Shown: piece after piece, positions 9,326 through 54,167 of the stretch | Layout of the letters: each line of letters begins with the position of its first letter | Position numbering within the stretch: position 1 is the stretch's first letter | Source of the DNA: Runella sp. MFBS21 | Lineage (GTDB): Bacteria; Bacteroidota; Bacteroidia; Cytophagales; Spirosomataceae | Length of the DNA: 64,000 bases | Direction: 5' to 3' | Assembly (NCBI RefSeq): GCF_029433105.1 | Contig: NZ_JARNTW010000005.1 | Span: 1-64,000, forward strand | The notes under the pieces: generated by a model | Told to the model about the DNA's origin: nothing | The model's database searches: none | What the model saw: the letters and a program-made list of their open reading frames with translations, nothing else | Translations under genes and position numbers: made by a program

Positions 9326-9420
9326 ATTGCAACCTCTATGCTATATATTGCAACTACGGTGCTAACACAGTAGGCTATGCTAGGTGTATCTTGCAGCTAC
9401 GTTGTGCAAAAACACTAGCA

Positions 9421-37599: not shown

Positions 37600-37626
37600 G
37601 GTTGTTAATATTTTGATGACTGTATT

Positions 37627-38685: not shown

Positions 38686-38702
38686 TGCTTTGGCTGGATT
38701 GC

Positions 38703-40028
38703 TTAGAGTTGGTTATAAAATGTAAGTAAGGTGCCCTGTGATTGTTCTAAATCAAGACGGGCCTGATAAAAATTGATGAGAGAATTGATATAGTTTGACT
38801 GTGCCTGGCGATAGGAGTTGTCGGCGTTAATTAAATCTGTTAGCGACTTGGTGCCTTGTTTGTATTGTAGCGTGGTGATGTTATATACTTCTTGCGCTAG
38901 TTTTACATTACGGTCGTCGTTTTGGATGTTGGTTTGGGTTTTTTGCAGTTGGGTTTGGGCGTTGTTAAATTGCAAACCAAAGGAGGCCATATTGAGCTTC
39001 AATTGTTCTTCTTGGGTCATGATAGTGAGGCGTTGTTGTTGGACTTGGGCATCGCGCTGAAAACCATCAAAAATGGGGATATTGAGTCTTAATCCTACAC
39101 TTCCAAAGCCTGTAAAATTGCGAAAACCATCCGTAAACTGATTACCCAAAGCCAAAGTACCGTAGTTGGCGGTAAAGTTGAGGGTAGGTTGGTATCCTGC
39201 CTTAATGCGTTGTAATTGAAGCTTTTGAAGTTCCAAGTTTGTAACAGCTTTTTGGTAAGCTACCAAACTGTGTGTGTTAAATTGGGGTAACTCTACAGTG
39301 GGAATTTGGCGCGAAGTCACCGAATCGGCAATGCTGAGAGATTGTTCTTGCGGTAAGCCCATTTGGTATTTGAGACGATTGAGCGCAAAAGCAAGGTTGT
39401 TTTCGCTGACCGACAATTGAGACTGCGTATTGTTATAACTTACTTCAGTATTGCTATAGTCAATCGGCTGAATCACCCCATTGTCGCGTTGAAGTTTTAA
39501 GATATTCAAGACTTGCTGCGTACGTTGGAGGTTGTCTTTGAGCAAATCAATCTGCTGCTGTACAATCAAGACTTGATAGTAATTAGTAGCGATGTTGTAG
39601 ATGATTTCTTCGCGCGTTTGGCGTACTGTCAAGTCGGCCAATTTCTGATTCGGAACGTTGGCTTTCAGACCCAAAAGGGCAGATTTGTCATAAATCGTTT
39701 GAGTAAGTTGGGCTGAGACATTGGTTTGGTACTTAGATCCCAACGAAATACGAGTTGGCTCTGGCCCAGCAAACCCCGCTGGAAGCAAGGTAGTTTGGAG
39801 TTTGAGGTTGTCGGTAAAATTGCCCGTGGCTGATACCTGAGGGAGATAGGTTCCCAATGCTTGCCGAGCTTGTTGATTGGCAGTTTCGGTTTGGTACTGG
39901 GCTACGCGTACAGTTCCGAAATGTTGAAGCCCATAGTCGATACAGGCTTTGAGCGACCAATTTTGCTGTGCCATACTGGGCAAAGTCGGCGCTAATGAAA
40001 TCATTAAAAAGGCTGCTAATCGTTTCAT
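38703..40028 (-). CDS. TolC-family outer-membrane efflux protein
   Basis: 441 aa. Signal peptide 1-20 (FLMISLAPTLPSMAQ). Two outer-membrane efflux protein repeats of long helices and strands: NWSLKACIDYGLQHFGTVRVAQYQTE at the mature N-terminus, and QAQSNYINSLINFYQARLDLEQSQG near the end, which is the classic TolC second-repeat signature. No lipobox. Forms the trimeric exit duct. Second gene of the efflux operon, preceded by two MarR-type operator copies at 40061-40087. Confidence 0.95.
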   Translation of the reverse strand: MKRLAAFLMISLAPTLPSMAQQNWSLKACIDYGLQHFGTVRVAQYQTETANQQARQALGTYLPQVSATGNFTDNLKLQTTLLPAGFAGPEPTRISLGSKYQTNVSAQLTQTIYDKSALLGLKANVPNQKLADLTVRQTREEIIYNIATNYYQVLIVQQQIDLLKDNLQRTQQVLNILKLQRDNGVIQPIDYSNTEVSYNNTQSQLSVSENNLAFALNRLKYQMGLPQEQSLSIADSVTSRQIPTVELPQFNTHSLVAYQKAVTNLELQKLQLQRIKAGYQPTLNFTANYGTLALGNQFTDGFRNFTGFGSVGLRLNIPIFDGFQRDAQVQQQRLTIMTQEEQLKLNMASFGLQFNNAQTQLQKTQTNIQNDDRNVKLAQEVYNITTLQYKQGTKSLTDLINADNSYRQAQSNYINSLINFYQARLDLEQSQGTLLTFYNQL

Positions 40029-40611: not shown

Positions 40612-40769
40612 CCAAATGTTTTTTGAAAAAGTTTATGAAAGGAAGAAAAAGCTTGGTGAGAGGTGAGGATTTAGAATGACCGTTTGATAAATTGTTAGGG
40701 AGGAGGATATCTCATTTTCTATTCAAATATGCTATATTTACTACCCATGAATCTTTACTCTACCGTACA

Positions 40770-41423
40770 ATGAGTCAGTTTATTAAAATAGTTCTTGTTG
40801 ATGATCATCAGATTATTATGGATGGTCTTAAGTATTTGTTTGAGTCGATTCCAAACGTAAAAGTAGTGGCGACTTTCACGGACAGTCGACGAGTTGTTCC
40901 TTTTCTTGAACTCCATCCAGAAGCTGATTTGATAGTGGCAGATTTGCATATGCCACACCTTACCGGAATAGACCTTACGCTGCAAATAAGACATCTTTAT
41001 CCCCAAGTAAAAGTGTTGCTACTGACGATGGCCGAAGACGCTACGCATATCAGAGAAGCCGTAAAAGTAGGGGTAAACGGCTATATCCTAAAAAAAACCA
41101 GCCGAGAGGAGTTGGAAAAAGCCTTGAAGTACCTCATGGCCGGCAAAAAATATTACAGCGAAGAAGTAATAGATGAACTTGCCTCATCACCTACCGACGA
41201 CCTCAACAATGCCCGCCCTGATACGATTCAGCGCCTCACCTCACGCGAAGTAGAAGTACTCAAACTCATTTCGGAAGAAAAATCAACCGCCGAAATTGCC
41301 GACTCTTTATTCATTAGTGTTCCTACCGTTGAGACACATCGCCGTAGTTTGATGATGAAGCTCAATGCCAAAAACGTGGTGGGGCTTGTCAAATACGCGA
41401 TTCGGCATGGATTAAGCCTCTAA
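40770..41423 (+). CDS. NarL-family response regulator 1
   Basis: 217 aa from ATG 40770; an in-frame TTG/ATG upstream would add 26 residues unlike the family. Receiver with acidic VDDHQ, Asp58 in LIVADLHMPHLTG and Lys in YILKKTSREEL. LuxR-type HTH (about 150-212) with LTSREVEVLKLISEEKSTAEIADSLFIS and VETHRRSLMMKLNAKNVVGLVKYA. Very similar to regulator 2 at 45859, so both probably read related operators. The operator doublet at 41426-41463 starts 3 bp after its stop and serves the next gene. The likely partner is the kinase at 41797-43632. Confidence 0.95.
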   Translation: MSQFIKIVLVDDHQIIMDGLKYLFESIPNVKVVATFTDSRRVVPFLELHPEADLIVADLHMPHLTGIDLTLQIRHLYPQVKVLLLTMAEDATHIREAVKVGVNGYILKKTSREELEKALKYLMAGKKYYSEEVIDELASSPTDDLNNARPDTIQRLTSREVEVLKLISEEKSTAEIADSLFISVPTVETHRRSLMMKLNAKNVVGLVKYAIRHGLSL

Positions 41424-41425
41424 AA

Positions 41426-41494
41426 TCATGATTTTTAAGTGAAAATATCATGGAAAACCATGAGAGGGAAGATGAATTAGATAAAATACTTTTG
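41426..41494 (+). promoter_or_regulatory. Operator doublet and -7 box before the 109-aa gene
   Basis: First site TCATGATTTTTAAGTGA (41426-41442), second site TCATGGAAAACCATGA (41448-41463, perfect inverted repeat with 4-nt spacer), starts 22 bp apart. A TACTTTTG -7 box (TAnnTTTG) is at 41487-41494, beginning 24 bp after the second site. It leads to the ATG at 41527. Confidence 0.75.
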
Positions 41495-41526
41495 TGTAAG
41501 TTTCAAACTTTCAAATATCATATACA

Positions 41527-41856
41527 ATGAGTGATTTAGGCAAATTTATCAATTCAGTGGAAGAGTACATCAAAACCACTATAATAGTGGACACTGCAGG
41601 AAACCCCACTCAACAATTTAAGGTATTGTTTGGTAATTGTAGTGTAGTGGGTGGAGATGTGATTTTAGGGGATGTTCGGATTCCGAGGAAAAGCGTAATA
41701 TACACTTCTGAAACTTTACCTAACGAAGAAGAGCCTAAAAAAAAGATGTTTCTTGCCGTGACGGCCAATGCCTCCTCTAATTATTCATTGATAGAGTCAT
41801 TGGGTCATCCCGATTCCCAGGAAATGAATCAATACGATAGTAAATATTTTTTCTAA
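41527..41856 (+). CDS. 109-aa orphan protein under the shared operator
   Basis: No family recognised. 109 aa, no signal peptide. It begins MSDLGKFINSVEEYIKTTII (helical), then a beta-rich middle FKVLFGNCSVVGGDVILGDV with the only cysteine (about residue 38) and a GG pair, and ends in a Ser/Asn-rich tail (AVTANASSNYSLIESLGH). It has its own operator doublet and -7 box. The last 60 bp overlap the 3' end of the convergent kinase gene at 41797. It could be a modified-peptide substrate of the kinase/HopA1-like pair at 43656-45660, because it lies in the same regulon. That idea is speculative, since it has just one Cys. Confidence 0.65.
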   Translation: MSDLGKFINSVEEYIKTTIIVDTAGNPTQQFKVLFGNCSVVGGDVILGDVRIPRKSVIYTSETLPNEEEPKKKMFLAVTANASSNYSLIESLGHPDSQEMNQYDSKYFF

Positions 41857-43632
41857 TACAATCACGAAGTAGGTGCCATTTGGGCTGGTCTGAACGGTTA
41901 ATGTGCCGTTTAGTTCCTTGATTCTCTGTTGAATATTTCTAAGGCCTCTACCATTGCTGATTACTTCTTGAGGTATTCCTTGCCCGTTGTCGCTTACTTC
42001 AATTTGCAGGTTTTGTGCCCTGCTTGAGAAGCTTATAGAAGCAGCAGAGGCTTTAGAATGTTTGATGATATTGTTGATAAGTTCCAGTAAAATGCTATAG
42101 AGTTCAAACTCAATTTTTTTGTCCAAGCGGGAAAATAAATCAGGTATTTTCAACTCAAATTTAATTTTCTTATTTCGATTAAGCTGTCTAGTGAGCGTCG
42201 CTAGGGCGTGTAGAAGCCCTTCTTTTTCGAGCTCTTCTGGAAGCAAATGGTGTGACATATTTCTTACTTGGTCATAAGATTCACTCATCATCTTGAGGAT
42301 ATGATCATAAATTTCAAGTTCGTGAGGAGTAAGGATATTTTTATTCATGGCAAGCATACTCCATCTCATGGCCGAAAGTTGACTTCCTAGATTGTCATGA
42401 AGCTCGGCGGCTACGCGCTTACGTTCGGTAGTTTGGCCAGTAAAATGCGCTTCTTGGATTTCGGCGTTTTTCTTACGTAGGGTACGATTGTTCCACAAAA
42501 GTAAACCTACCAACGCCAGAAACATTACCAAAATCCCAATTAGGAAATAAAGCGTAGTTTGTTGTTGTTGTTGAGTGAGTGTTTGATTATCAATGTTTTT
42601 TTTGTGTATTTCGCGCTCATTGTCGTATTGTTGGCGATAGAGATTCAATTGCTTTTGGGTGTCATTGCTCAGTAATTGAATTTTGGTATCAAGGTATTTC
42701 TCATGAAATTCAAGGGCTTTTTTATAATCTTTGAGCCCTTTGTAAGCATTAAAAAGGGATTCATATGCCCATAGCATATCTTCCAAACTTTGGCTGGGAG
42801 TAGAAAGCTCAAGTGATTTTTGACTAAAAACGATGGCATTCTTGAAATCTCTTTTTTTGACATAGAGATAGGCTAGCTCTTGATAAGGCCCAGCAAGGTC
42901 GGATTCCGAACCGCTTTTTTTAAAGTAAACTATAGCTTTTTCTAAACAATCATACGCTGCTTCAAATTGGTTTTTGACAATCAAGTAATCTCCCCATGAA
43001 TAATAAAGATTGCCTAGCCAAAAGTCATTTTGGAGTGTTTTAAATAAGGTTTCGGCTTTTTTAAAGAAAGGGATAGGGTCAGCATCGGGGAGGCTTTTGA
43101 GGGTAGTCGCCAGATTTAAGTAACAAGCCGCAAGCTCTTTTGTGTTTTTTTGGGTTTCGTGTATTTTGATTAATTTTTTGTAATAATAAATCGCTGAATC
43201 TTTTTGGTTAAGTGTACTAAAATAATCGGCAATTAGGCGTAAGGCTATTAGCTTAGAATTCAGTGAATTAGTTTTTTCTGACAAGGTCAGCGATTGGTAA
43301 GCAAGCTGAAGCGATTCGTAGGTCTGACCCAGTTTAAATTTTGTTCTGCTCAAATCTTCATAACTCATTATTTGTCCTTTATGCCAAGCGATTTTTTTTG
43401 AAAGCTCAAGCGCTTGATTTGCATAATGAATGGCCGCTTTATAATCGGGATAATAATAATAAGTAAGGCTTAGTGTATGTTGGAGTACAATGGTTTGGGT
43501 ATCTTTTGAGAATGAAGGGCTAGCGTTTTGAATATTCCTCAACACCTGCTTTAAACTATCAATTTTCTTATCTTGTGCCAATAAAGTCACACCCAAAAAA
43601 CAACAACTGAAGGTCAGCCAGAAACGCAACAT
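41797..43632 (-). CDS. TPR sensor histidine kinase 1 (HisKA_3 type)
   Basis: 611 aa. Signal peptide 1-19 (LRFWLTFSCCFLGVTLLAQ). Tetratricopeptide repeats over about 35-335 (for example QLAYQSLTLSEKTNSLNSKLIALR). A membrane helix at about 363-384, then a short coiled coil; HisKA_3 with phospho-His412 in VAAELHDNLGSQLSAMRW; HATPase_c to the end (ELINNIIKHSKASAASISF, GIPQEVISNGRGLRNI). The last ~15 residues (FTIVLIHFLGIGMTQ) run past the normal end and into the opposite gene, so the original stop may have been lost. Pairs plausibly with regulator 1 or 2. Confidence 0.93.
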   Translation of the reverse strand: MLRFWLTFSCCFLGVTLLAQDKKIDSLKQVLRNIQNASPSFSKDTQTIVLQHTLSLTYYYYPDYKAAIHYANQALELSKKIAWHKGQIMSYEDLSRTKFKLGQTYESLQLAYQSLTLSEKTNSLNSKLIALRLIADYFSTLNQKDSAIYYYKKLIKIHETQKNTKELAACYLNLATTLKSLPDADPIPFFKKAETLFKTLQNDFWLGNLYYSWGDYLIVKNQFEAAYDCLEKAIVYFKKSGSESDLAGPYQELAYLYVKKRDFKNAIVFSQKSLELSTPSQSLEDMLWAYESLFNAYKGLKDYKKALEFHEKYLDTKIQLLSNDTQKQLNLYRQQYDNEREIHKKNIDNQTLTQQQQQTTLYFLIGILVMFLALVGLLLWNNRTLRKKNAEIQEAHFTGQTTERKRVAAELHDNLGSQLSAMRWSMLAMNKNILTPHELEIYDHILKMMSESYDQVRNMSHHLLPEELEKEGLLHALATLTRQLNRNKKIKFELKIPDLFSRLDKKIEFELYSILLELINNIIKHSKASAASISFSSRAQNLQIEVSDNGQGIPQEVISNGRGLRNIQQRIKELNGTLTVQTSPNGTYFVIVLEKIFTIVLIHFLGIGMTQ

Positions 43633-43655
43633 TAGATAGCAGGTTTAAAAAAGAA

Positions 43656-44696
43656 ATGTACGTAAAAATGTTCTTGTCGGCAACTAATATTGGATTTTAC
43701 ATTTTTGAGCGAGGTCTTACTTCTTTTGAGGCATATCAAGCTGGAGTGGTTCACTATGATGAAAGTCATGGACGTAATTTTGGATTGCAGGTAGAGATGA
43801 AAACAGGAGCCTCTTTTTTTGTGAAACAATGTAAGTCAAATGATTTAGAAAATAGAAGGACGTTTGAGAAAGAAGCCATTTTTTATGATTTTATGTCAAA
43901 TCATCCTTCACACCTCACACCGTCGATACCTACATTTTATGATTATGATGCTCGCTACGCTATTTTAGTATTGGAGTTGGTTCTCAAGGCCCAAAATCTC
44001 TATAAAATTGCTTCTATTTCAGAACAAATCATAAGGCAAGTAGCTCAAGTTTTGGCAGCACTTCACACATTCAAAAAAAAGGAACTTTTGCCCTTTTCAG
44101 ACCATGTGCCTACGTTGCTAACCCTCCACGATACGCATACTCAGCGGTGGCTTTTGTCTAAAAATAATACCAATCATCAAGCGTTGCTAAAAATGCTTTT
44201 TAGTCGCAAAGTATTACTAGAAGGATTGGGGCATTTGGCAAAAAACTGGCGAAGTGAAAGGCTGTGTCATGGAGACTTGAAATTTGAAAATATTCTGATT
44301 TCTACTTCCCAAGGCCTCAGACTCATTGATTGGGAAGAAGCAGGCTGGGGCGACTCCCTTTGGGATGCCGCAGGGGTGATACAGTCGTTGATTAGCAAAG
44401 AACTCATGGAAAGCCCACAGCTGATTTTTAGTCCTTTTGTTGCTTCTGAACCTCTGAAATCTCCCAATATAAGGCAAAATTCGGCAAGCTTTTGGTCCAC
44501 TTACACAAGCTTGATGGACGACACCTTTGCGGAGGAGCAAGTGATTGGCTATGTAGGGGCCAGAATGATTGGGAGATTGTTTGAATACAGTAGTGCTACC
44601 GACATATCCGCAAGAGCCCGTGAAATGATACCTTTGGCCGAAAAAATGATAACTGAACCACATAAGTACACTTATCTTTTGAAAAATAATGAGTGA
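43656..44696 (+). CDS. Aminoglycoside-phosphotransferase/protein-kinase-fold protein (LxmK-like)
   Basis: 346 aa, APH/choline-kinase fold. N-lobe: Lys in FFVKQCKS with a helix containing FEKEAIFYDFMSNH. Catalytic loop CHGDLKFENILI (His205, Asp207, Asn212 by count), and metal-binding Asp in LRLIDWEEAGWGDSLWDA (about residue 225). Start is ATG 43656; the second ATG at 43668 is also possible. Divergent from kinase 1 with 23 bp between. Its stop overlaps the HopA1-like gene by 8 bp, so the two are one translational unit. Ordinary aminoglycoside resistance is unlikely; the pairing resembles the kinase of class V lanthipeptide synthesis, which phosphorylates Ser/Thr of a precursor. Confidence 0.8.
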   Translation: MYVKMFLSATNIGFYIFERGLTSFEAYQAGVVHYDESHGRNFGLQVEMKTGASFFVKQCKSNDLENRRTFEKEAIFYDFMSNHPSHLTPSIPTFYDYDARYAILVLELVLKAQNLYKIASISEQIIRQVAQVLAALHTFKKKELLPFSDHVPTLLTLHDTHTQRWLLSKNNTNHQALLKMLFSRKVLLEGLGHLAKNWRSERLCHGDLKFENILISTSQGLRLIDWEEAGWGDSLWDAAGVIQSLISKELMESPQLIFSPFVASEPLKSPNIRQNSASFWSTYTSLMDDTFAEEQVIGYVGARMIGRLFEYSSATDISARAREMIPLAEKMITEPHKYTYLLKNNE

Positions 44697-45660
44697 AGAG
44701 ATATTAAAAAAAATGATAGCCTCGGTGGAGGTTACTTCTACCAAGCAAATTATATTTCAAGGAGAGGCTGTGTTGGAATTTTACAATTTTTTGCCAGTAC
44801 ATGAAATAGCCAACGAGTGGTTGATTGAGACTTTACAGCGACTATTTTATAAACATTTTTATATAGTACCCTCTACTCCGAAGATACTTCCTGATAAAGC
44901 CAATCAAAAAGCATACTTTAAAAAGCTACGCTCGGCCAATCGTACGCGAAGTAAATGGCAAAAAGGCTGGAAACTCGAACATATCAATACCAATGGGAGT
45001 GTAGTCGTAACCTTAAAAGGAGAGCGGCGTTTGGCGCGGGTAGGGGAGTTTATATTAGAAAATCCTTATCATAAACCCCTGAAAGTAGGCGAGCAGGTGC
45101 GGATTTTTTGTCCTAAGGAGTATGCTGAAAGCGTGGAGGGTTTTTATCATGTATTTGGGGAAAGATTGTCGGACAACTTTCTGGAAAGTGAAGTACGATT
45201 TTATTTTAATCTTTTGCCCGACGGTTCTCCTTTGTTGATAAAATCATTGACACTTTACTTGAATCTAGCCCAAATTCCTTTTCATTTCAAGTGCCTTCAA
45301 AATCCCCTTTTATATGATAGAGTAGATGCGGGGATACTTTACGTGAGTCGTCGGTATTTTTTTGAATTGGTGCCTATTCTGTGGCAAATCTACGAAGAAG
45401 TCGAATCGTATCTCGCGCCTGATGTTCCCTTGTTTACATTGGTTTTGGCCAAAGGATTGGGTTTTGCCGAAACCCCTACCGCCGATAGCTTTGGGATGCA
45501 TCGTTGTAAGCTCTTTGCCACGGCCTTGGTAGAGTTGCTTTCAGAGAAAAACAGCGTATCAGTCCCGCTACTACAAGAGAAAATTGGACAACAAGGTTAT
45601 GATTTTAACCGGTTATATCTGAATAAAAATAGTCGTTTTCCCTATCTATTTGAAAAGTAA
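44689..45660 (+). CDS. HopA1-like protein (LxmY-like phospho-Ser/Thr lyase candidate)
   Basis: 323 aa, no signal peptide. The pattern fits the HopA1 family: an N-terminal helical half, RTRSKWQKGWKLEHI with beta strands around residues 85-130, FYHVFGERLSDNF, VRFYFNLLPDGSPLLIKSLT (in two pieces), VSRRYFFELVPILWQIY, and the closing GLGFAETPTADSFGMHRCKLFATAL about residue 260-280. HopA1 was named from a Pseudomonas type III effector; chromosomal relatives occur with APH-like kinases, and in class V lanthipeptide loci the pair dehydrates Ser/Thr by kinase then lyase. It overlaps the kinase gene by 8 bp. No type III secretion genes are in the window. Confidence 0.75.
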   Translation: MSEEILKKMIASVEVTSTKQIIFQGEAVLEFYNFLPVHEIANEWLIETLQRLFYKHFYIVPSTPKILPDKANQKAYFKKLRSANRTRSKWQKGWKLEHINTNGSVVVTLKGERRLARVGEFILENPYHKPLKVGEQVRIFCPKEYAESVEGFYHVFGERLSDNFLESEVRFYFNLLPDGSPLLIKSLTLYLNLAQIPFHFKCLQNPLLYDRVDAGILYVSRRYFFELVPILWQIYEEVESYLAPDVPLFTLVLAKGLGFAETPTADSFGMHRCKLFATALVELLSEKNSVSVPLLQEKIGQQGYDFNRLYLNKNSRFPYLFEK

Positions 45661-45693
45661 TTCCTGAAATGTCTGCTGAAAAAAATCTATAAA

Positions 45694-45762
45694 TCAAGGT
45701 TTTCGTACTGAAAAATCATTGGAAACCCTGATGATTTTATTTTTTATAAATGTTCACTTTTG
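45694..45762 (+). promoter_or_regulatory. Operator doublet and -7 box before response regulator 2
   Basis: Degenerate first site TCAAGGTTTTCGTACTGA (45694-45711), second site TCATTGGAAACCCTGA (45716-45731), starts 22 bp apart. CACTTTTG, a -7-like box, is at 45755-45762, again beginning 24 bp after the second site. The gene's ATG is at 45859. Autoregulation of regulator 2 is likely. Confidence 0.6.
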
Positions 45763-45858
45763 TGTCCATCAAAAAAAGACTGGGAATAAAAAGCTTCTTT
45801 GGTCGGCTACATTGTGGTTTTTGTGGAAGAATGTTTGGAGATACTAATAATTGTACCT

Positions 45859-46512
45859 ATGATAGACGGTCGTATTAAACTTATTTTAGTAGATGATCAC
45901 CAAATCATTTTGGATGGATTAAGGTTTTTATTTTCTTCATTCAAAAACTTTCAAATAGAGGCAGCGTTTACAGATAGCCGTAAGGTGTTACCTTACTTAG
46001 AGGCTCATGGGGAGGTGGATATAGTGATAGCGGATCTTAATATGCCTCATCTGACGGGTATTGACTTAGTGATATTATTGAAAAAAAAATTCCCTACTAT
46101 CAAAGTGCTTTTGTTGACTCTGTCTGAAGACATTGGTCATATCAAAGAGGCTTTTAAAGCGGGTGTTTATGGCTATGTTTTGAAAAAAGCCGACAAAAGT
46201 GAACTCGAAAAGGCGATTGAGCAATTGATGGAAGGACAAAAATACATCAGCGAAGATATGATTGAGGAGTTAACCTCCAATACCTCTGTACCTCCTAAGC
46301 CGTTGGAGTCTGAGAGTATCCGCCATTTGACTGCCCGAGAGAGGGAGGTATTGAAGTTGATTCTTGATGAAAAATCTACCATAGAGATTGCGGATATTTT
46401 GAGTATCAGTATACCTACGGTAGAGACACACCGGCGCAGTTTGATGATTAAACTCAACGCCAAAAATGTGGTAGGGCTTGCCAAATATGCGATTAAATAT
46501 GGATTGGTTTAA
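45859..46512 (+). CDS. NarL-family response regulator 2
   Basis: 217 aa from ATG 45859; TTG 45799 would give a 20-residue extension absent from regulator 1. Receiver with VDDHQ, Asp59 in IVIADLNMPHLTG and Lys in YVLKKADKSEL. LuxR HTH with LTAREREVLKLILDEKSTIEIADIL and VETHRRSLMIKLNAKNVVGLAKYA, which matches regulator 1 residue for residue in the recognition helix. Convergent with kinase 2, whose stop is 3 bp away. Preceded by an operator doublet. Confidence 0.95.
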   Translation: MIDGRIKLILVDDHQIILDGLRFLFSSFKNFQIEAAFTDSRKVLPYLEAHGEVDIVIADLNMPHLTGIDLVILLKKKFPTIKVLLLTLSEDIGHIKEAFKAGVYGYVLKKADKSELEKAIEQLMEGQKYISEDMIEELTSNTSVPPKPLESESIRHLTAREREVLKLILDEKSTIEIADILSISIPTVETHRRSLMIKLNAKNVVGLAKYAIKYGLV

Positions 46513-46514
46513 AT

Positions 46515-48536
46515 CTATAAGGGTATCCTAATGAGGTGAGTCGTACCGAAGGGAGTATTGTCTGAATTTGTCCAATGACCTTGCAATGACGCAAGGCGAG
46601 TAGCAATATTTCGTAATCCTTTACCCTCTTGAGGGACGTTATCCATGCCTTTTCCATTGTCTGATACAGTCAAAAGTAATGTTTCTTTAGTGAGTTCAAC
46701 CCTGATGGTGGCCTCAGTGGCTTGGGCGTGTTTGAGGATATTGTTGATGAGTTCAAGACAGATACTGTAAAGTTCAAATTCGGTTTTAGAGTTCAATCGA
46801 GCAGGGTTATCTGTCAGTTGAAGCGAAAATGTAACAGGAGTATTACGGTTAAGTTTTTTTATGAGTATTTCGAGAGCTTTCCATAGTCCTTGTTTTTCTA
46901 ATTCTTCAGGGAGTAGGTTGTGTGAAAGTAGTCTGACTTGGTCGTAGGCTTGCTCGATGGTGCTCTGGACGTGTTGGTATACTTCTTGTTCTTTTGGTTC
47001 AAGTTTGTTTTTATCGATGGTACCGATACTCCATCTTAGGGAAGAAAGCGTACTTCCGAGGGCGTCGTGGAGGTCGGCGGCTACGCGTTTTCGCTCGGTG
47101 GTTTGGCCTTCGAGCAAGGCAGCTTGGAGTGCGATGTTTTGGCGTTTGAGCATTTGATTACGATAAAAGATAAACGAAAGTCCAATGAAAAACGCAACTA
47201 TAGCAGCAATCGTTATCAACTTTCGCTGTTGTTGTGCCTTTTCATTTGCGAGCTCTCTTGCGCGTTCTAGTTGCCTTTGTTCTACCTCAATGATTTCAAT
47301 TCGTTGGGCTTTTTCGTGGCGGAAGAGGCTGTCTTTGACTGCAAGCATGAGGTCTTGATATTTGAGTGCACTGTCGGGTTGATGTCTGATTTTATAAGTC
47401 TGAGAGAGAGCTTTGCTAGCTTCCCAAAAACCACGCGGGAAGTTGGCCGCTATAGCGCACCGCATCCCTTGCGTAGCGTAATAAAAACTTGAATCAATTT
47501 TTCCTAATTGAAGGCACAGGTTTGCTGCTTGGGCATATACTACGCTCAAGGTTTTTTGGTTGTTTTGTTGAATACAAGCATTGATACCACGCTTGTACCA
47601 GTAGAGGGCTTCGTGAAGATGACCGTATCTTTCTAATGCTTTGGCGTAGGTCATAAAAATATAGCCAAGCTCATGGGTGATGTGGTGATGTAGAGCTTCC
47701 TTAACTCCACCTTTGGCAAAATACAGGGCAGAATCCAATTGATTAAGTGCTTCGTAGGCATTGCTCAGATGTGCTTGCTCATAGTAAGTTCCTCGCTGAA
47801 GAGATTCTTTTATTTTTTTTGCCTGAAAAAGGTAAGGCTTAGCTTTTTGAAAATCGCCCAATGTGATATATAAATATCCGATAGCGCGGTGGCAGTCTTC
47901 GTCAACAAGGTCTTTGAGTTTGTATTTTTTTTTGAGCTCTAGCGATTGTAAATAAAAATCAAGCGCTTTGGCATAGTCACCTCCATTGAGGTAGCTGTTG
48001 CCGATGTCTAAAGTCGTTTTGGCTTTTAATCGGTACGTTTGGTAATGGGTAGAGAGAGCAAGCAATTCCATTCGATAGTAGAGACTGCTATCAATTTGAA
48101 AACCGTCATAGTGAGCGGCTACACCTATTAAGATTTTGATTTGTAGGTTGTCTTCTGAATAAGGAGTTTGTCCAAAATAGCCTTCTTTTTTACAAATCGC
48201 TAAGGTTTTGAGATAATGAATGATAGCAGCTTTATGGTTATTCAGGGTTCTATAGCCTTGAGCTAGGGCATAGAGAGCTTCTGCTTGGGCGGTAGTGGAG
48301 CGAATTTTTTTTGCTTCTGCTAAAGCTTGGGTGGCTATAAGTAAACAAGAGTCTCCTAGTCTTCTTTTGGCATATTCTTCAGCCAAGCGGGTCATTAACA
48401 GGCTTTTTTGTAAGCTGCTTTTTTGGGTGGCTAAAACTTGTCGAATACTGTCAGTAGCCGTAGGAGAATAGTTTTGACCGAAGCACTGAGCCGTAAGCAT
48501 CAAGCAGTAAACAAAAACAGCACTACGAAAAAGCAT
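46515..48536 (-). CDS. TPR sensor histidine kinase 2
   Basis: 673 aa. Signal peptide 1-20 (VFVYCLMLTAQCFG). TPR repeats at about 30-420 (ALDFYLQSLELKKKYKL, ALYWYKRGINACIQQNN). A membrane helix about 445-462 (LITIAAIVAFFIGLSFIFY), HisKA_3 with His490 in VAADLHDALGSTLSSLRW, and HATPase_c to the end. The dimerisation/phosphotransfer part is nearly identical in DNA to kinase 3 (46713-47140 against 48897-49325), while the sensor and the last ~60 residues differ. A single TCATGGTTTTCCATGA lies 76 bp before its start. Convergent partner: regulator 2. Confidence 0.93.
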   Translation of the reverse strand: MLFRSAVFVYCLMLTAQCFGQNYSPTATDSIRQVLATQKSSLQKSLLMTRLAEEYAKRRLGDSCLLIATQALAEAKKIRSTTAQAEALYALAQGYRTLNNHKAAIIHYLKTLAICKKEGYFGQTPYSEDNLQIKILIGVAAHYDGFQIDSSLYYRMELLALSTHYQTYRLKAKTTLDIGNSYLNGGDYAKALDFYLQSLELKKKYKLKDLVDEDCHRAIGYLYITLGDFQKAKPYLFQAKKIKESLQRGTYYEQAHLSNAYEALNQLDSALYFAKGGVKEALHHHITHELGYIFMTYAKALERYGHLHEALYWYKRGINACIQQNNQKTLSVVYAQAANLCLQLGKIDSSFYYATQGMRCAIAANFPRGFWEASKALSQTYKIRHQPDSALKYQDLMLAVKDSLFRHEKAQRIEIIEVEQRQLERARELANEKAQQQRKLITIAAIVAFFIGLSFIFYRNQMLKRQNIALQAALLEGQTTERKRVAADLHDALGSTLSSLRWSIGTIDKNKLEPKEQEVYQHVQSTIEQAYDQVRLLSHNLLPEELEKQGLWKALEILIKKLNRNTPVTFSLQLTDNPARLNSKTEFELYSICLELINNILKHAQATEATIRVELTKETLLLTVSDNGKGMDNVPQEGKGLRNIATRLASLQGHWTNSDNTPFGTTHLIRIPL
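46713..47140 (-). repeat. Kinase-core repeat shared with 48897-49325
   Basis: DNA of the HisKA_3 and early ATPase segment (protein stretch from IALQAALLEGQTTERKR to ILKHAQATEA) is nearly identical to the same segment of kinase 3. The flanking sensor and C-terminal sequences diverge abruptly. This fits gene conversion or a partial duplication. Confidence 0.75.
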
Positions 48537-48611
48537 GGAGCGTCATGAGCTATTTTAAGATATATAAAGATGCTTTGTTTTAGTCAAACTTTCAAGAAAA
48601 GGCACTAAAAA

Positions 48612-48627
48612 TCATGGTTTTCCATGA
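48612..48627 (-). promoter_or_regulatory. Single copy of the 16-bp operator before kinase 2
   Basis: TCATGGTTTTCCATGA, a perfect inverted repeat, 76 bp upstream of the kinase 2 start. No second copy or -7 box at the spacing seen in the four doublets, so its role may be different (or repression). Confidence 0.55.
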
Positions 48628-48680
48628 CCATATTTTGTACTTATGCTAGAAAAGGAAACTATTGAAAATCGAATACAGCG

Positions 48681-48700
48681 CACCACAGTAAAGTGTGGTG
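48681..48700 (-). terminator. Hairpin just after the kinase 3 stop
   Basis: CACCACA / TGTGGTG, a 7-bp stem with loop GTAAAG, starting 4 bp after the stop codon on the minus strand. No clear T run, so a weak terminator. Confidence 0.45.
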
Positions 48701-48703
48701 AGA

Positions 48704-50681
48704 TTAAGCCGAGAAAACGACTTCGTTAGTCAACCCGTTTTCGTTTGAAATAATATAGCGTTGGCCGCCTAAGGTCTGAACCCGTTCATCAATGTTATGT
48801 TGTCCTTTACCTTTGGGAGTATGTTTTGTTATCCCTTTTCCGTTGTCACTTACCGTCAATTTAAATTGTCCATTCAATTGGGTAAAACTGATACTTGCCT
48901 CGGTAGCGTGAGCATGTTTGAGGATATTGTTGATGAGTTCAAGACAAATACTGTAAAGTTCAAATTCGGTTTTAGAGTTCAATTGAGCAGGATTATCTGG
49001 CAGTTGAAGCGAAAATGTAACAGGAGTATTACGGTTAAGTTTTTTTATGAGCATCTCGAGTGCTTTCCAAAGCCCTTGTTTTTCAAGTTCTTCGGGGAGA
49101 AGATTATGTGAAAGTAGTCTGACTTGGTCGTAGGCTTGCTCGATGGTGCTCTGGACGTGTTGGTATACTTCTTGTTGTTTTGGTTCGAGTTTGTTTTTAT
49201 CGATGGCACCGATACTCCATCGCAGGGAAGAAAGTGTACTTCCGAGGGCGTCGTGGAGGTCGGCGGCTACGCGTTTACGTTCGGTAGTTTGGCCTTCGAG
49301 TAAAGCCGCTTGCAGGGCGATGTTTTGAAAGCGGAGTTGGCGGTTGTTCCAAATGATAAATCCTAACAATAAAGCTAACAACGCTGAACCTACAATGAGC
49401 CATGTACGTAACTGTTGCTGTTGTTTGAGTTGATTTTCGAGGGTGAGTTTTTGAATACTTCCTTGTTGTTGAGCCGAAATATTTTTGAATTCGGTTTCTT
49501 TTAGTTTTTGTTCAGCTTCTTCAGCGGCCAATCTTTGTTGATTCAGCTCCAAATCTTTGTTTAGAAGCTGCATGCGAGATGAGTTTTTTTAGGATAGTGA
49601 GCCGATTGATGGTAAGTAATTCTTTTTGACGAGCTATCTCGGCTTCCTTTTTTTGAGTTTGATATTGAAGTTCAAGTTCGTTGAGGCGTTTGCTAGATTC
49701 GACGCCTTGTAGCGAATCAACCAAAAAAATGGCAATTTGGAAATGTTTAAGTGCCGATTCATAATTTTTGACGGCTTCATAAGCTTTATATAAAAGGTCA
49801 TGGGCTTTTTTGATGTATAAATCGGATTTACGTTTTTGGGCAATATCAAGGGCAATTTTGCCATAAATAATGGTTTTTTGATGCTCTTTTTTGTCGGTAT
49901 AAAATTCGGCGAGGCGATTGGCAAGGTAGCCGTCAGTGATAGAGGCTGGATTGTTAATAGGGTCGATACCTGCTTTTTTGTAGTAAATAGTAGCGCTATC
50001 AGGAAGGTTGTTGAACAAAAACATGGTGCCGATACCAGTAAGCGGGACAACGGCAGAAGGTAGTTTGTATTTTTCTGAAAGGGCAATGGTTTTTCGGTAA
50101 TGCTCAAGCGCTTTTGGATAGTCTTGCTTCATGCGATATGCATCTGCGAGGTAATTGTGTACATTGCCTTGAGAGAAATAATCTTTGGTGCTTTCAAAAA
50201 TTCTAAGCGAATAGTTAAGATAATAAAATCCCTTGTCAAACTGATAGTCGGATGCAAGCATAGCCCCTAGGCGAGCGCTGGCAATGCCGACTTCGCGCAT
50301 ACGTTGCAATTGTTCCCATACGCGTATGGCTTGAATATAATCACTGACGGCTGAGTCTTTTTTTGCCGCAAATGTATAATAGTAGCCGCGAGTTCGGTAA
50401 AAATACCCCCAACCTGCGGGCCATTTCATCGTTTTTAGTTTCTTATAAACGGTATTGATAAAATAGTAGGAGGAATCTAGTTTTTTGGAGGTATAATCGC
50501 TCGCTAGATCTAATTCAAAACGTATGATGGAAGTATCTCTTCCGAATGATTGGGGTTGCTTGAGTAATCCCATGATGTTGTTGCGACGCGAATTGATAAA
50601 AGTATTGCTTTGAGAAAATAGCAACTCGGGTAAGAAGAAAGAGATTAGAAGTAGAAAAGTAAAAATTCCTTTCATTCGCAT
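48704..50681 (-). pseudogene. TPR sensor histidine kinase 3, split by a frameshift in an A7 tract
   Basis: The N-terminal frame, from ATG 50681 (or 50675, MKGIFTFLLLISFFLPELLFS signal peptide), carries TPR repeats and ends at 49521 with an out-of-family tail. The C-terminal frame (48704-49573) resumes with MQLLNKDLELNQQRLAAEEAEQ (coiled coil), a membrane helix (WLIVGSALLALLLGFIIW), HisKA_3 (VAADLHDALGSTL) and HATPase. The break coincides with seven T (A7 on the coding strand) at 49584-49590; removing one A gives a continuous protein of about 658 aa. Two pieces could be expressed separately, but the C-terminal part alone would lack its sensor. Lesion or homopolymer error. Confidence 0.8.
48897..49325 (-). 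repeat. Kinase-core repeat shared with 46713-47140
   Basis: Second copy of the near-identical DNA segment. Similarity stops abruptly after the segment encoding ILKHAHATEA, and the last 80 or so residues of the two kinases differ. Confidence 0.75.
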
Positions 50682-50817
50682 TAAGATATTGTCAGAGAAA
50701 TAAACCCTATGTATATGTAAAAGTAGGTGGTAAGCTCTCGCTTGTATTGTAAAAATACGACATCTGGAAAAGTAATGCTTTGTTTTGAGAAATGAATGTA
50801 GCGTTTTACTCAAAAAA

Positions 50818-50887
50818 TCATGGTTTTCCATGAGGTGAAAGCATGGCAAACCATGAGAAATAGAGAGATGGATAGTGCCGAATTTTG
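50818..50887 (+). promoter_or_regulatory. Operator doublet and -7 box before the NTF2-like gene (divergent with kinase 3)
   Basis: First site TCATGGTTTTCCATGA (50818-50833, perfect), second site GCATGGCAAACCATGA (50841-50856), starts 23 bp apart. GAATTTTG (-7-like) is at 50880-50887, beginning 24 bp after the second site. It leads to the ATG at 50919. The same region also lies upstream of kinase 3 on the other strand. Confidence 0.75.
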
Positions 50888-50918
50888 TAACAGTAAAACC
50901 CTATAAATTTTTCGATAG

Positions 50919-51755
50919 ATGAAAGCTCAAAACATTGGCCTGAAAATCCTTTTAATGATTACCTTTTTGTGTATACAACTGACGGCTTTTAGCCAGAGTT
51001 TGGAGCAGACCTTCTCACAGTTGTTAGAAGAATACAAAAAAAGCCCTAAAGAATATGCGCAAAGGAGCTATTCTGAAGATTATCGGTTTTTGGGCTGGGC
51101 CTCTGGTAAAATTATGGGTAAGAGCGAAATGCTTGCCTTTTTAGGCACCTTGAAAGTGGCGGAATTATCTTGTTCAGATTTGAAGTTTGTGGAGTCAGGC
51201 AATGTGGGAGTAGTAAGTGGGTATCTGACAGCTAAGTATGCTGCCAACACTTATAAAGACGCATTTACGTATGTTTATCAAAAACAAAAAGGTAAGTGGG
51301 TCAATATCTCGGGGCAACATACCAAGGTGAGTTATGATGAGCCGAGTAAAATCGCTGCTGACGAAATGGCAATCAAAAAAGTAATCTCTCAAAGCACAGA
51401 TTCACTTTATGCTGGAAAATTGTCTTTTTATGTTCAGACATTGGCAAATCAGCCGTATTCGTCACGTACGAGTGTCAATGCAGAAGGCAAGTTGGATTAT
51501 TATGCAGGTGAAGAATTGGCAAAGCTTATTGAAGATTATAAAAAAAATATAGCTAAAAACCCAACCACTTCTACCGTAATCGCAACCCGCGATAACTGGC
51601 TGATAAGGGTCAATGGAAGTTCGGCCTTTGTCACCTTTGACCAGCATAATCAAAATTCAAACGGCACAAAACGTGACAGCAAAGAGATACGCTATTTAGA
51701 AAAAACAAACGGTGAATGGAAGGTAGTAAGTGTGGTTGCGCTAGTCAAAAAATAA
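50919..51755 (+). CDS. Secreted protein with two NTF2-like (SnoaL/DUF4440) domains
   Basis: 278 aa. Signal peptide 1-25 (ILLMITFLCIQLTAFSQ). Two tandem NTF2-like cone folds: first about 30-140 (FRGWASGKIMGKSEMLAFLGTLKV-like pattern DYRFLGWASGKIMGKSEMLAF, and VSGYLTAKY), second about 145-278 (LYAGKLSFYVQTLAN, DNWLIRVNGSSAFVTFDQ, LEKTNGEWKVVSVVALVKK). NTF2-like proteins can bind or isomerise small molecules. First gene of a two-gene unit with DUF3237 (34-bp gap). The operator doublet 86 bp upstream ties it to the local two-component cluster. Confidence 0.75.
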   Translation: MKAQNIGLKILLMITFLCIQLTAFSQSLEQTFSQLLEEYKKSPKEYAQRSYSEDYRFLGWASGKIMGKSEMLAFLGTLKVAELSCSDLKFVESGNVGVVSGYLTAKYAANTYKDAFTYVYQKQKGKWVNISGQHTKVSYDEPSKIAADEMAIKKVISQSTDSLYAGKLSFYVQTLANQPYSSRTSVNAEGKLDYYAGEELAKLIEDYKKNIAKNPTTSTVIATRDNWLIRVNGSSAFVTFDQHNQNSNGTKRDSKEIRYLEKTNGEWKVVSVVALVKK

Positions 51756-51789
51756 AAATTATCTCATTTCAAATCCCCCTTTTTTATCA

Positions 51790-52269
51790 ATGGAAAATGT
51801 ATCTATCGTCCCTGTAAGAGGACTTACCACTGAATTTTTGATGGAAATGCGTGTAGAACTCAATTTGCAAATCATTGGTGATACACCTAATGGCCACCGT
51901 CGCGTGTATCATATTACGGGTGGTACAGCCCTTGGTCCCGATTTTAAAGGGGAAATACTGCCGGGTGGAGGAGATTGGTTCATTGTTCGTCCCGACGGAG
52001 TGGGGTTGCTAGATGTGCGAGCGACGGTCAAAACCGACGATGATGCTTTGATTTATGTGACCTACCGTGGGATTTTGTACAATACCCCTGCCCTCGAAGC
52101 AAGGCTCATAGCGGGCGAAACAGTACGCTGGGATGAATACTATTTCCGAGTGGCACCGTTTTTTGAAACAGCTTCCGAAAAATACGCCTACCTCAATCAC
52201 ACCCTAGCGATAGGAGTAGGTGAAGCTGACTTCGCGGGAGTGTCGTATAGTGTATATCGTGTGATTTAG
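51790..52269 (+). CDS. DUF3237 (UPF0311) protein
   Basis: 159 aa, no signal peptide. Matches DUF3237: TTEFLMEMRVELNLQIIGDTPNGHRR at the start, then the GGTALGPDFKGEILPGGGDWF loop, RPDGVGLLDVRATVKTDD, and FRVAPFFETASEKYAYLNHTLAIGVGE. These proteins fold as a beta barrel and are commonly found with small-molecule metabolic enzymes, but their activity is unknown. 34 bp after the NTF2-like gene, same operon, both families being small ligand-binding folds. Confidence 0.85.
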   Translation: MENVSIVPVRGLTTEFLMEMRVELNLQIIGDTPNGHRRVYHITGGTALGPDFKGEILPGGGDWFIVRPDGVGLLDVRATVKTDDDALIYVTYRGILYNTPALEARLIAGETVRWDEYYFRVAPFFETASEKYAYLNHTLAIGVGEADFAGVSYSVYRVI

Positions 52270-52315
52270 GAGATGCCGTGGTTTAGGTAAAAAAGAAAAT
52301 ATGATAAGTCTAAAT

Positions 52316-52385
52316 TCATGGTTTTCCATAATGTAAAATCTTAAGAAACCATGATAAAAAAGGAGAGGGAAGAAGGGAGATTTTA
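52316..52385 (+). promoter_or_regulatory. Operator doublet before the surface-protein operon
   Basis: First site TCATGGTTTTCCATAA (52316-52331), second site TCTTAAGAAACCATGA (52339-52354), starts 23 bp apart. AGATTTTA at 52378-52385 occupies the position of the -7 box (24 bp after the second site) but matches the consensus weakly. The gene starts at 52451. Confidence 0.6.
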
Positions 52386-52450: not shown

Positions 52451-54154
52451 ATGAAACTATATAGCACATGTTGTTTGATTAGCATTTTACTATTGTGTAT
52501 TGGGAGGACACTACAAGCTCAAAACCTCGAAAAGATAAAAAAACAAAAACCGTTTGAAGTGCATGGTTCTTTATCTTTAAGTTTACAGTTTTATGATGTA
52601 AATGGTATTAGTAGTAGACGTCCTCCATTTACATGGTATATCACTGGGGCACCTGTGGTGAAAATATGGGGTATGTCATTGCCTATCTCTTTGACATTGA
52701 GCGAGCAACAACGCACTTTTTCGCAGCCTTTTAATCAATGGGGGGCGAGTCCTTATTTCAAAAAAATAAAGTTTCATTTGGGGTATCGCAATGTCCGTTT
52801 CTCCGATTTTACTTTGGGAGGGGCTACTTTTTTGGGTGTAGGTGTAGAATCGATCGGCACCATAAGGTTTGGTTTTGTATATGGTCAGTTTGTGAAACCT
52901 ATTGAAGAAGATTCGTCAGGCTTAGATCCCCGTTATCGCTACCTACGGCCTAGTTATCGACGATTAGGAATGGCTGGAAAAATAGGAGTAGGAAAACCCA
53001 ATGCTTTTTTGGATATCAGTGTATTCAAAGCACATGATGTAATTGGGTCTATCAATACTCCTTCCAAACGTTCGCAGGTTACGCCGATGGAGAATTTGGC
53101 GGTAGGCATAAAAAATCACCTTAGTTTTTTTAAACAGAAGTTGGTGGTTGATTTAGATGTGGGGGCCAGTCTGTTAACACGCAATACGTTGCGATACGAT
53201 TATGAAGGTTCGGATCCAGTTTTGCGTTTTTTTGTAAATATACTACCCGTTAATGGTTCTACTTCTCTCTTTACAGCAGCTCGAGGAAATGCATCATATC
53301 GGTTTAAAAGCGGCAGTCTGGCGGTTCAGTATCAACGCATTGACCCAGATTATCAGTCTTTGGGCGCGTATTATTTTCAAAACGATGTGGAGCAATTTAC
53401 GCTTTCACCTTCCTTCTCTTTCTTCAAAAACAAACTAATGATCAATGGTTCGTATGGGCGCTCACACGATAATCTTAATCAAAAAAAACTGGCGACTACG
53501 TATCGAAATGTGGGAGCGGTCAATATAAGTGCGGCGCTAATTCCTCGACTAAATATCACTCTGATGTATACAAACTTCGGTGTTGGTCAGAGCCGGGGGC
53601 TGGGCGATTTGTTTAATGATTCGCTGGCTATCAGTATTGTAAATGCGTCTTATAGCGGAAATATAAGCTATTCGCTTGGGTCTCGTATCCAACGGCAAAC
53701 GTTTGGTGTCATGGCTACGTACCAGAATACAAATGATCAAAATCAATTTACACGGCAATATGTGGGCGCTTCTTCTTTCATAAGTTCTGTGAGCTATAGT
53801 TATTCTTATATCCCTGCCAAACTCACAAGCAGTTTATCGGTAAGCTATGTTTCTATAGAAACGTATGGACGCCGATCTACCAATATAGGGCCTGCTCTAA
53901 CAGCTAGCAAAGAATGGTGGAAAGGTAAATTGCGTACCTCTTTTACCCATAATAGTCAGCTTCGGCAAACAAATCGACTAAGCGATGGCATAATGGCCAA
54001 TACGGGTATGAGTGCTTCTATACATCAGAAAAAACAATCCTTGACGCTGGCTGCCAACTATTTGTATAACCGCTACAATACCAGTTCTGAGGGGATCAAT
54101 TACCGGAATTTTAGTGAATACCGAGGGACAATTACCTATGGAATACGATTCTAA
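52451..54154 (+). CDS. Outer-membrane beta-barrel protein
   Basis: 567 aa. Signal peptide 1-23 (CLISILLLCIGRTLQAQ). Mature protein of alternating amphipathic strands (FEVHGSLSLSLQFYDV, TLSEQQRTFS, IRFGFVYGQF, SLTLAANYLYNRYN) and ending in GTITYGIRF, a terminal Phe as expected for BAM-inserted barrels. About 20-24 strands are likely. Family not recognised. First gene of an operon with the giant secreted protein, which starts 13 bp after its stop. It could export, anchor or accompany that protein. Confidence 0.8.
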   Translation: MKLYSTCCLISILLLCIGRTLQAQNLEKIKKQKPFEVHGSLSLSLQFYDVNGISSRRPPFTWYITGAPVVKIWGMSLPISLTLSEQQRTFSQPFNQWGASPYFKKIKFHLGYRNVRFSDFTLGGATFLGVGVESIGTIRFGFVYGQFVKPIEEDSSGLDPRYRYLRPSYRRLGMAGKIGVGKPNAFLDISVFKAHDVIGSINTPSKRSQVTPMENLAVGIKNHLSFFKQKLVVDLDVGASLLTRNTLRYDYEGSDPVLRFFVNILPVNGSTSLFTAARGNASYRFKSGSLAVQYQRIDPDYQSLGAYYFQNDVEQFTLSPSFSFFKNKLMINGSYGRSHDNLNQKKLATTYRNVGAVNISAALIPRLNITLMYTNFGVGQSRGLGDLFNDSLAISIVNASYSGNISYSLGSRIQRQTFGVMATYQNTNDQNQFTRQYVGASSFISSVSYSYSYIPAKLTSSLSVSYVSIETYGRRSTNIGPALTASKEWWKGKLRTSFTHNSQLRQTNRLSDGIMANTGMSASIHQKKQSLTLAANYLYNRYNTSSEGINYRNFSEYRGTITYGIRF

Positions 54155-54167
54155 CAATTTGAAAACC

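Follow-up and report, generated by a model that had tools for sequence, protein, structure and literature searches.

Genes and paired repeats of the window

The window, a stretch of 64,000 nucleotides (nt) from Runella sp. MFBS21 (contig NZ_JARNTW010000005.1 of a 7.88-Mb genome in 72 contigs), carries between positions 41426 and 52385 a series of two-component regulatory genes interspersed with paired copies of the inverted repeat TCATGG-N4-CCATGA or degenerate forms of it. These pairs, referred to here as operators 1 to 4, and the NarL/LuxR-type response regulators that very probably act on them are the subject of this analysis. G and L numbers denote genomes compared and loci fetched, respectively (G000 is the window's own genome, and G008 is Runella zeae), and features are on the forward strand unless stated otherwise.

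The series opens with RR1 (40692 to 41423), a NarL/LuxR-type response regulator with Pfam matches to Response_reg and GerE. Its longest open reading frame (ORF) opens at TTG, and the in-frame ATG at 40770 gives a protein of 217 amino acids (aa), equal in length to the ORF in R. zeae; the query used for identity searches and for the regulator tree started one codon past this ATG. RR1 is 98% identical to the copy in G008, the closest relative in the set, and 97% identical to that in NZ_KE384048.1 (Runella zeae DSM 19591). Operator 1 (41426 to 41463) consists of a distal half-site, TCATGATTTT, and an exact proximal copy, TCATGGAAAACCATGA, at 41448, an arrangement repeated in R. zeae (locus L016). 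The -7 octamer TACTTTTG lies 24 nt past the operator (41487 to 41494), and the first gene behind it encodes P109, a protein of 109 aa (41527 to 41856). HK1, a TPR sensor histidine kinase with a Pfam HisKA_3 domain, is encoded on the reverse strand (41797 to 43632), followed on the forward strand by genes for an APH-like kinase (43656 to 44696; Pfam), distantly related to the class V lanthipeptide protein LxmK, and for a HopA1-family protein (44689 to 45660; Pfam), a LanY/LxmY-like lyase candidate.

Operator 2 (45694 to 45731), degenerate with 6 and 2 core mismatches, and its octamer CACTTTTG (45755 to 45762) precede RR2 (45799 to 46512), a second NarL/LuxR-type response regulator (Pfam; longest ORF from TTG, ATG at 45859). 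Two further TPR sensor histidine kinases, HK2 (46515 to 48536; Pfam) and HK3 (48704 to 50849), are encoded on the reverse strand, and a single exact copy of the repeat stands 5' of HK2 on that strand (48612 to 48627). The coordinate 50849 is the start of the longest ORF (TTG); the true start of HK3 is probably near 50675. HK3 is split over two overlapping frames in the window, a frameshift either of the strain or of the assembly, and its R. zeae ortholog is a single ORF of 656 aa. Operator 3 (50818 to 50856), a near-perfect pair with the octamer GAATTTTG (50880 to 50887), precedes genes for a DUF4440 protein (50919 to 51755; Pfam) and a DUF3237 protein (51790 to 52269; domain match). Operator 4 (52316 to 52354) has a poor octamer, AGATTTTA (52378 to 52385), whose counterpart in R. 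zeae, at offset 24, is GAACTTTG; 3' of operator 4 are tandem ORFs of 567, 2511, and 682 aa (52451 to 63694).

The pairs begin at 41426/41448 and 45694/45716 (22 bp apart) and at 50818/50841 and 52316/52339 (23 bp apart), as the preliminary description had listed them together with the exact single copy at 48612. Its term "near form" was generous: core mismatches, out of 12, number 6/0, 6/2, 0/1, and 1/3 across the four pairs, and of the distal copies at 41426 and 45694 no more than the outer half is recognizable, making these half-sites. Mismatches in the four pairs affect 3 of 48 outer bases versus 16 of 48 inner bases. The octamer, said to begin 24 nt past the end of the second copy, is at that position in all four cases and is of good sequence in three; at operator 4, it agrees with the sigma-A-type sequence TAnnTTTG at 3 of 6 defined bases. 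All nine operator copies are intergenic, provided that HK3 starts near 50675; with a start at 50849, the longest ORF overlaps the 50818 pair.

At ≤2 mismatches, the window holds 8 matches versus 2.3 expected, a number reached in 0 of 100 shuffles, and two of the eight (30926 and 48533) look like chance. In a genome-wide motif scan, suggested earlier as a check, all three exact copies in the 7.88-Mb genome are inside the window, and copies with ≤2 mismatches are at background, without excess (268 versus 273 for the reversed pattern). An outer-arm pattern, TCATGRTTTT-N16-21-AAACCATGA, which was derived from the same window pairs that it matches, matches 3 genomic sites, each of them inside the window, versus 0 for the reversed control. 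Because the convincing sites are confined to one 11-kb stretch, we regard them in this genome as a local cluster. A genome-wide regulon was considered for this genome and rejected: operator plus octamer at ≤3 mismatches occurs at 10 places versus 3 for the reversed control, of which five are in the window, comprising three true operators with octamer (41448, 50841, and 45716) and two exact copies in the wrong register (50787, minus strand, and 50818), and the five outside are at background.

At operator 4, 5' of the 567-aa gene, the arms are kept in R. zeae and the linker to the octamer has diverged, and conservation here is, as judged by sequence comparison, a specific footprint. The RR2 promoter is the same in R. 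zeae from operator 2 to the octamer, except that the gap separating the copies is one base shorter; with the linker equally conserved, this comparison cannot single out operator 2. R. zeae also retains the operator and octamer that belong to the DUF4440 unit (L015, 13600 to 14300). The DUF4440 and DUF3237 genes are unmatched there, and the sequence that comes next resembles, by eye, the beginning of the DUF3237 gene.

Octamer placement and copy spacing in related genomes

Of 59 genomes, 24 were searched with TCATGGWWWWCCATGA at ≤1 mismatch: 13 of the genus, the window's own included, and 11 others of the family. Exact copies occur in 12 of the 24 and are clustered over 12 to 23 kb in G001, G004, and G010. 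Surroundings were fetched for every exact match and for the 1-mismatch places except six (in G015, G017, G028, and G034), which are excluded from later counts; the neighbor survey of these same-genus and same-family loci covered genes within 4 kb. As the sites were picked without regard to the octamer, they provide a noncircular test of its placement. The octamer pattern NANNTTTG stands at offset 24 on one side in 26 of 46 operator groups, whereas the other 71 offsets combined give 20 matches over 92 flanks, with ≤3 at any one offset. When similar flanks are merged, the octamer is at 24 in 16 of 67 clusters and at any other offset in ≤3. Where an extra dyad is present (L035 to L038), the octamer sits 24 nt past that extra dyad.

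The distance between copies is similarly constrained. Among pairs spaced 10 to 40 bp apart with at least one exact member, the spacing is 23 bp in 26 pairs, 24 in 6, 25 in 3, and 22 in 1, with no other value, so that the random spacing and equal frequency elsewhere named beforehand as grounds for abandoning the motif were not what we found. The geometry agrees with dimer steps of about 22 bp, 26 of 36 pairs being spaced at 23 bp. Copy number varies, with triples in L036 to L038, four copies listed in L035, and single sites elsewhere. Six isolated 1-mismatch matches (L031, L032, L039, L040, L043, and L044, of which L040 matches all 12 core bases) were rejected as operators and treated as chance because they have neither an octamer at 24 nor a related regulator or kinase within 4 kb.

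Promoter architecture

Sigma-A promoters of Bacteroidota carry a -33 TTG element. In 39 unique promoters aligned on the operator and selected with the octamer A and TTTG/TTTA among the criteria, no TTG-like -33 element is visible; a second set of 38 promoters has a TTG within the -33 window in 1 case versus 4.5 expected from shuffles. We read the absence of -33 as a sign of activator dependence. The -7 sequence is also reduced: the A and TTTG of TAnnTTTG occupy a fixed position in 26 of the 46 groups; the first base is T in 6 of 38 promoters of the second set and C or G in 31. Base counts over the 39 promoters reveal two full 6-4-6 dyads, the proximal one stronger and followed by G. The four window pairs had suggested a palindromic reading of the 39-bp element in which only the outer arms count; this reading was therefore rejected and fits the degenerate local sites only.

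Relevant passages of a Flavobacterium study place TAnnTTTG at -12 to -5 (PMC9723704). Computed from that placement, the proximal dyad is centered at approximately -43.5 and the distal dyad at approximately -66.5. The first ORF starts 47 to 79 nt past the operator in 34 of the 43 promoters with an ORF.

Association with a group of NarL-type regulators

NarL-type regulators and TPR kinases adjoin most operator clusters, and DUF4440 proteins adjoin many (e.g., near operators of L019, L021, L026, L034, L035, L037, L038, L087, L092, and L094). By Pfam, RR1 and RR2 are regulators with a receiver and a GerE/LuxR helix-turn-helix (HTH) domain and are encoded with the histidine kinases HK1 to HK3. Of the 24 genomes, 13 have a regulator resembling RR1 (≥57% identity; next matches, ≤51%), which in G006 is represented only by two overlapping fragments. 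Exact operators are found in 12 of these 13 and in 0 of the 11 without the regulator (Fisher P = 4.8e-6, a value that ignores shared ancestry).

A scan of 222 genomes of the family for operator plus octamer at ≤1 mismatch returned 38 places in 23 genomes versus 2 places in 1 genome for the control. Among 16 new loci outside the genus, 13 have, inside the sequence fetched, a regulator 45 to 61% identical to RR1, the farthest approximately 6 kb away, 2 have a TPR kinase only (their contigs span 3.3 and 6.1 kb), and one, L085, has neither. Because the octamer was part of this search, the 16 loci test the neighbors and not the octamer. The wider order was sampled with 390 genomes: the pattern is in 9 of 77 genomes of the family (counted by hand) and in 5 of 313 outside it, versus 1 for the reversed control, and two of those five apparently represent a single site shared by related genomes. 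Defined in this way, the operator appears to be entirely or almost entirely restricted to the family.

When 51 regulators are placed in a tree, all 28 operator-linked sequences fall inside one 30-row group (support, 91/94; drawn open). The two unlinked rows of this group, L096 (from G018) and L097 (from G034, which has operators on another contig), are on contigs that end nearby. The 21 other operator-free rows are outside the group, including L098 and L099, which are paralogs at 47 to 51% identity encoded next to similar TPR kinases. The recognition helix of the linked regulators is mostly TVETHRRxL versus TVETHRHNI in the nearest unlinked clade. An operator precedes the gene of a clade regulator not only at RR2 but also at L020, L022, L026, L029, and L034.

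Genes behind the operators

First genes were listed for 47 promoters, many of them orthologous, with 45716 and 52339 added by hand. The largest single class, 13 of 47, encodes an HTH-only GerE/LuxR-type protein of 64 to 77 aa (L019, L021, L033, L037, L080, L081, L087 to L090, L092, L094, and L095); the two that were checked have the GerE domain alone. HTH-only proteins are also encoded at operator loci of G004, G009, and G012. These proteins are possible feedback competitors of the response regulator. Small membrane proteins with weak similarity to DUF4267/DUF4345 account for 7 of 47 (two checked; one is within a longer ORF call), response regulators for 6, Zn-dependent dehydrogenases for 3, and P109 and a 143-aa protein for 2 each. 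Ten first genes are single cases, among them genes for FeeM/GNAT, an AraC-type regulator, and DUF2306 as well as the DUF4440 and 567-aa genes of the window, and 4 of the 47 promoters have no ORF of ≥55 aa in range. The FeeM-like N-acyl amino acid synthase/GNAT gene behind the operator of L019 (7052 to 8400, in G010) is followed by an ICMT-type methyltransferase gene.

No relative of the HTH-only protein was found at E ≤1e-6 in G000, G008, or G011, all of which keep operators; the best match to the HTH-only domain in G000 is RR1. The binder in this genome would accordingly be another protein, for which RR1 and RR2 are the best candidates.

Interpretation of the paired operators

We consider it very probable that the 38- to 39-bp element is a tandem operator for NarL/FixJ-family response regulators that activate promoters without a -33 element. 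Motif, spacing, fixed -7 distance, missing -33, link to one regulator group, and autoregulatory placement are established by comparing sequences; binding, dimer number, activation, and signal we infer only. The binders would be members of the NarL/FixJ-family group (RR1 and/or RR2 in the window) working with histidine kinases, mostly TPR-containing HisKA_3 proteins. One regulator dimer would occupy each 16-bp 6-4-6 dyad, and two dimers (sometimes one or three) would sit approximately 23 bp, or roughly two helical turns, apart on the same DNA face. With a -7 box at -12 to -5, dimers at the centers computed above could contact RNA polymerase. Since these promoters lack -33 and have a weakened -7, such contact would mean that the phosphorylated regulator activates them. 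The regulon proposed in the preliminary description, i.e., a paired 6-4-6 operator at a fixed distance from -7 and a NarL/LuxR-type regulator, is thus seen across Runella and in other genera of the family.

Several observations weigh against this reading. The octamer is absent at 24 in 20 of 46 groups, including 48612 and 52316 in the window, ten groups in G001, G004, G010, and G011, and the seven isolated sites L031, L032, L039, L040, L042, L043, and L044. At 48612, the octamer on the HK2 strand is at offset 20, not 24. Some of the ten have the octamer one base off, at 23 (L021, 12375), or 24 nt past a further degenerate copy; L042 has it at 23 and a kinase 3 kb away; and three of the six octamer-less single copies that G001, G004, and G010 carry close to regulator or kinase genes have CTATTTTG at 24, one base off. 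On the regulator side, G018 has the regulator and no copy with ≤2 mismatches on its 5.5-kb contig. The regulators of L082, L083, L084, L086, and L091 are 45 to 49% identical to RR1, while paralogs without operators reach 46 to 51%, and only tree placement separates the two sets; L082 and L084 have another kinase type (resembling the ORF at 9391), and no TPR kinase is listed for L083 or L086. Operators that obey the 24-nt rule are found with no such regulator within 4 kb at L023 and L027 and with only another kinase type within 4 kb at L024 and L028; as these four loci are away from the regulators of the same genomes, a regulon there would have several loci. Finally, the operator-linked label needs 3 changes on the tree rather than 1, long branches blur the edge of the linked group, and the recognition helix has exceptions, with linked L080, L087, and L090 departing from the motif and unlinked L111 having TVETHRRNL, so that the helix alone is not diagnostic.

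The same operator and regulator could instead serve repression, with promoter-adjacent dimers hindering RNA polymerase until phosphorylation changes. Autoregulatory sites would also suit a repressor, but the sites stop upstream of the -7 box without overlapping it, and an absent -33 and weak -7 are what activator-dependent promoters would be expected to have, which makes repression unlikely. Far less probable is that the site is actually bound by the HTH-only LuxR protein of 64 to 77 aa, with the response regulators uninvolved. Its gene is the most frequent first gene, and the two proteins checked are GerE alone, but operators are kept in the three genomes (G000, G008, and G011) where the search at E ≤1e-6 found no such protein, and the closest HTH in G000 is that of RR1. 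Slightly more improbable still is an unrelated transcription factor that uses the site while two-component genes are merely frequent neighbors; operators away from such regulators (L023, L027, and L085) would fit this, whereas the genome co-occurrence (12 of 13 versus 0 of 11) and the single regulator group in the tree argue otherwise. RNA hairpins, terminators, or chance repeats have a negligible likelihood, for although the dyads are palindromic and a stop codon lies no more than approximately 35 bases upstream of operators 1 and 2, the fixed distance upstream of a promoter-like octamer across genera and the constrained spacing do not suit them.

Returning to activation through tandem dimers, precedents exist in the NarL/FixJ family, to which BvgA of Bordetella belongs; FimS and FimR of Porphyromonas gingivalis, a member of the Bacteroidota, are a TPR sensor and a LuxR-type regulator, and to our knowledge, few operators of this kind have been mapped in Bacteroidota. 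ComA of Bacillus subtilis (NarL/FixJ) is described in the passages compared as an activator whose dimer binds the 6-4-6 inverted repeat TTGCGG-N4-CCGCAA (PMC4797271). The inverted hexamers with a 4-nt spacer and the presence of a second element downstream are shared with the operators studied here, as defined by the 39-promoter base counts. The hexamer, phylum, and sigma factor differ, and in the ComA text consulted, a direct repeat spaced by 5 nt forms the second element, in contrast to the operators here, which have another 6-4-6 dyad approximately 23 bp away. BvgA, in the sections of PMC7250471 used, binds as head-to-head dimers centered 22 bp apart on one DNA face. It is similar in placing dimer sites in steps of approximately 22 bp toward the promoter and, by the same sections, different in that its sites are heptads of variable quality, whereas those here are dyads of one sequence, usually 23 bp apart. 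As 6-4-6 sites (ComA) and 22-bp dimer steps (BvgA) are on record for the family, we count both in favor of a tandem operator. FimS/FimR is a two-component activator that binds its target promoter directly (PMC1974823); the part of that text compared gives no operator sequence.

While the architecture is therefore known, this operator and regulon were not found in the open-access full texts searched, and the portions consulted of a paper on a Spirosoma regulatory network (PMC10036542) contain no text on LuxR, response regulators, or a comparable motif. The analysis supplies a precise rule for the operator and promoter in a two-component regulon of Bacteroidota and ties it to one regulator group. 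Candidate targets are the regulator itself, HTH-only LuxR proteins, DUF4440 proteins, small membrane proteins, Zn-dehydrogenases, and small genes beside a class V-like pair, and through the shared operator, genes of unknown function gain a common control. The geometry, with dyads 23 bp apart, no -33, and a weakened -7, would represent clean class II-type activation with a Bacteroidota sigma factor. More speculatively, and with low confidence, the NarL-type group might drive a family-wide circuit in which operators of identical fixed geometry control its own gene and often an HTH-only copy of its DNA-binding domain, which would compete for the operators as a built-in, phosphorylation-independent limiter; the small operator-driven proteins beside the APH and HopA1 genes would be a new group of modified peptides controlled in this way.

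The APH and HopA1 gene pair

The APH-like kinase of the window matches the LxmK profile at E = 4.5e-23 with 81.9 bits, below the NCBIfam cutoff of 315 bits. Adjacent APH and HopA1-family genes are found in the window (43656 to 45660) and, in two other genera, at L080 (9703 to 11683) and L090 (5923 to 7917), where the order is the same: regulator, operator, small gene, TPR kinase on the opposite strand, APH, HopA1, and operator. Identities to the window are 31 to 42% for the kinase, APH, and HopA1 proteins and 59 to 60% for the regulator. Pair and operator therefore occur together in three lineages of Bacteroidota, and the other operator loci compared are without the pair. HopA1/APH was rejected as the defining partner of the operator, being present, besides the window and R. 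zeae, only at L080 and L090 among the loci compared.

An adjacent APH-like kinase and HopA1-family protein is what the window has in common with the class V LanK/LanY proteins (LxmK/LxmY and CaoK/CaoY), as these are presented in the relevant part of PMC9486802; the same part reports that CaoK/CaoY dehydrate Ser/Thr of their own precursor. Compared with class V lanthipeptide clusters, the window differs in its subcutoff kinase, and no precursor, cyclase, or transporter was identified in it. Given a kinase so far below the LxmK cutoff and no identified precursor, we call the pair class V-like only. The small proteins that follow the operator are P109, two related proteins of 143 aa, and one of 130 aa (L090), all with no clear C-terminal core containing Ser/Thr/Cys. 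P109 has no match in Pfam or NCBIfam, and a word-based database search gave two protein clusters as relatives, at 99% and 85% identity. The three kinds have no significant similarity to one another; P109 and the 130-aa protein are alike by eye and not by phmmer.

Other genes near the operators

The tandem ORFs behind operator 4 overlap by 41 bp (567- and 2511-aa ORFs) and 4 bp (2511- and 682-aa ORFs). The 567-aa and 2511-aa (54114 to 61649) proteins have no Pfam or NCBIfam matches, and fibronectin III is the sole domain match of the 682-aa protein. The label "surface" given earlier to this giant-protein operon is thus unsupported, the fibronectin III match being in the 682-aa protein only. Homologs of the 567-aa protein are encoded near operators in G001, G004, and G008. 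In three Runella genomes (L020, L022, and L026), RND efflux-like genes adjoin the operator-regulator cluster, and another RND set is located upstream of RR1 in the window (34480 to 40028).

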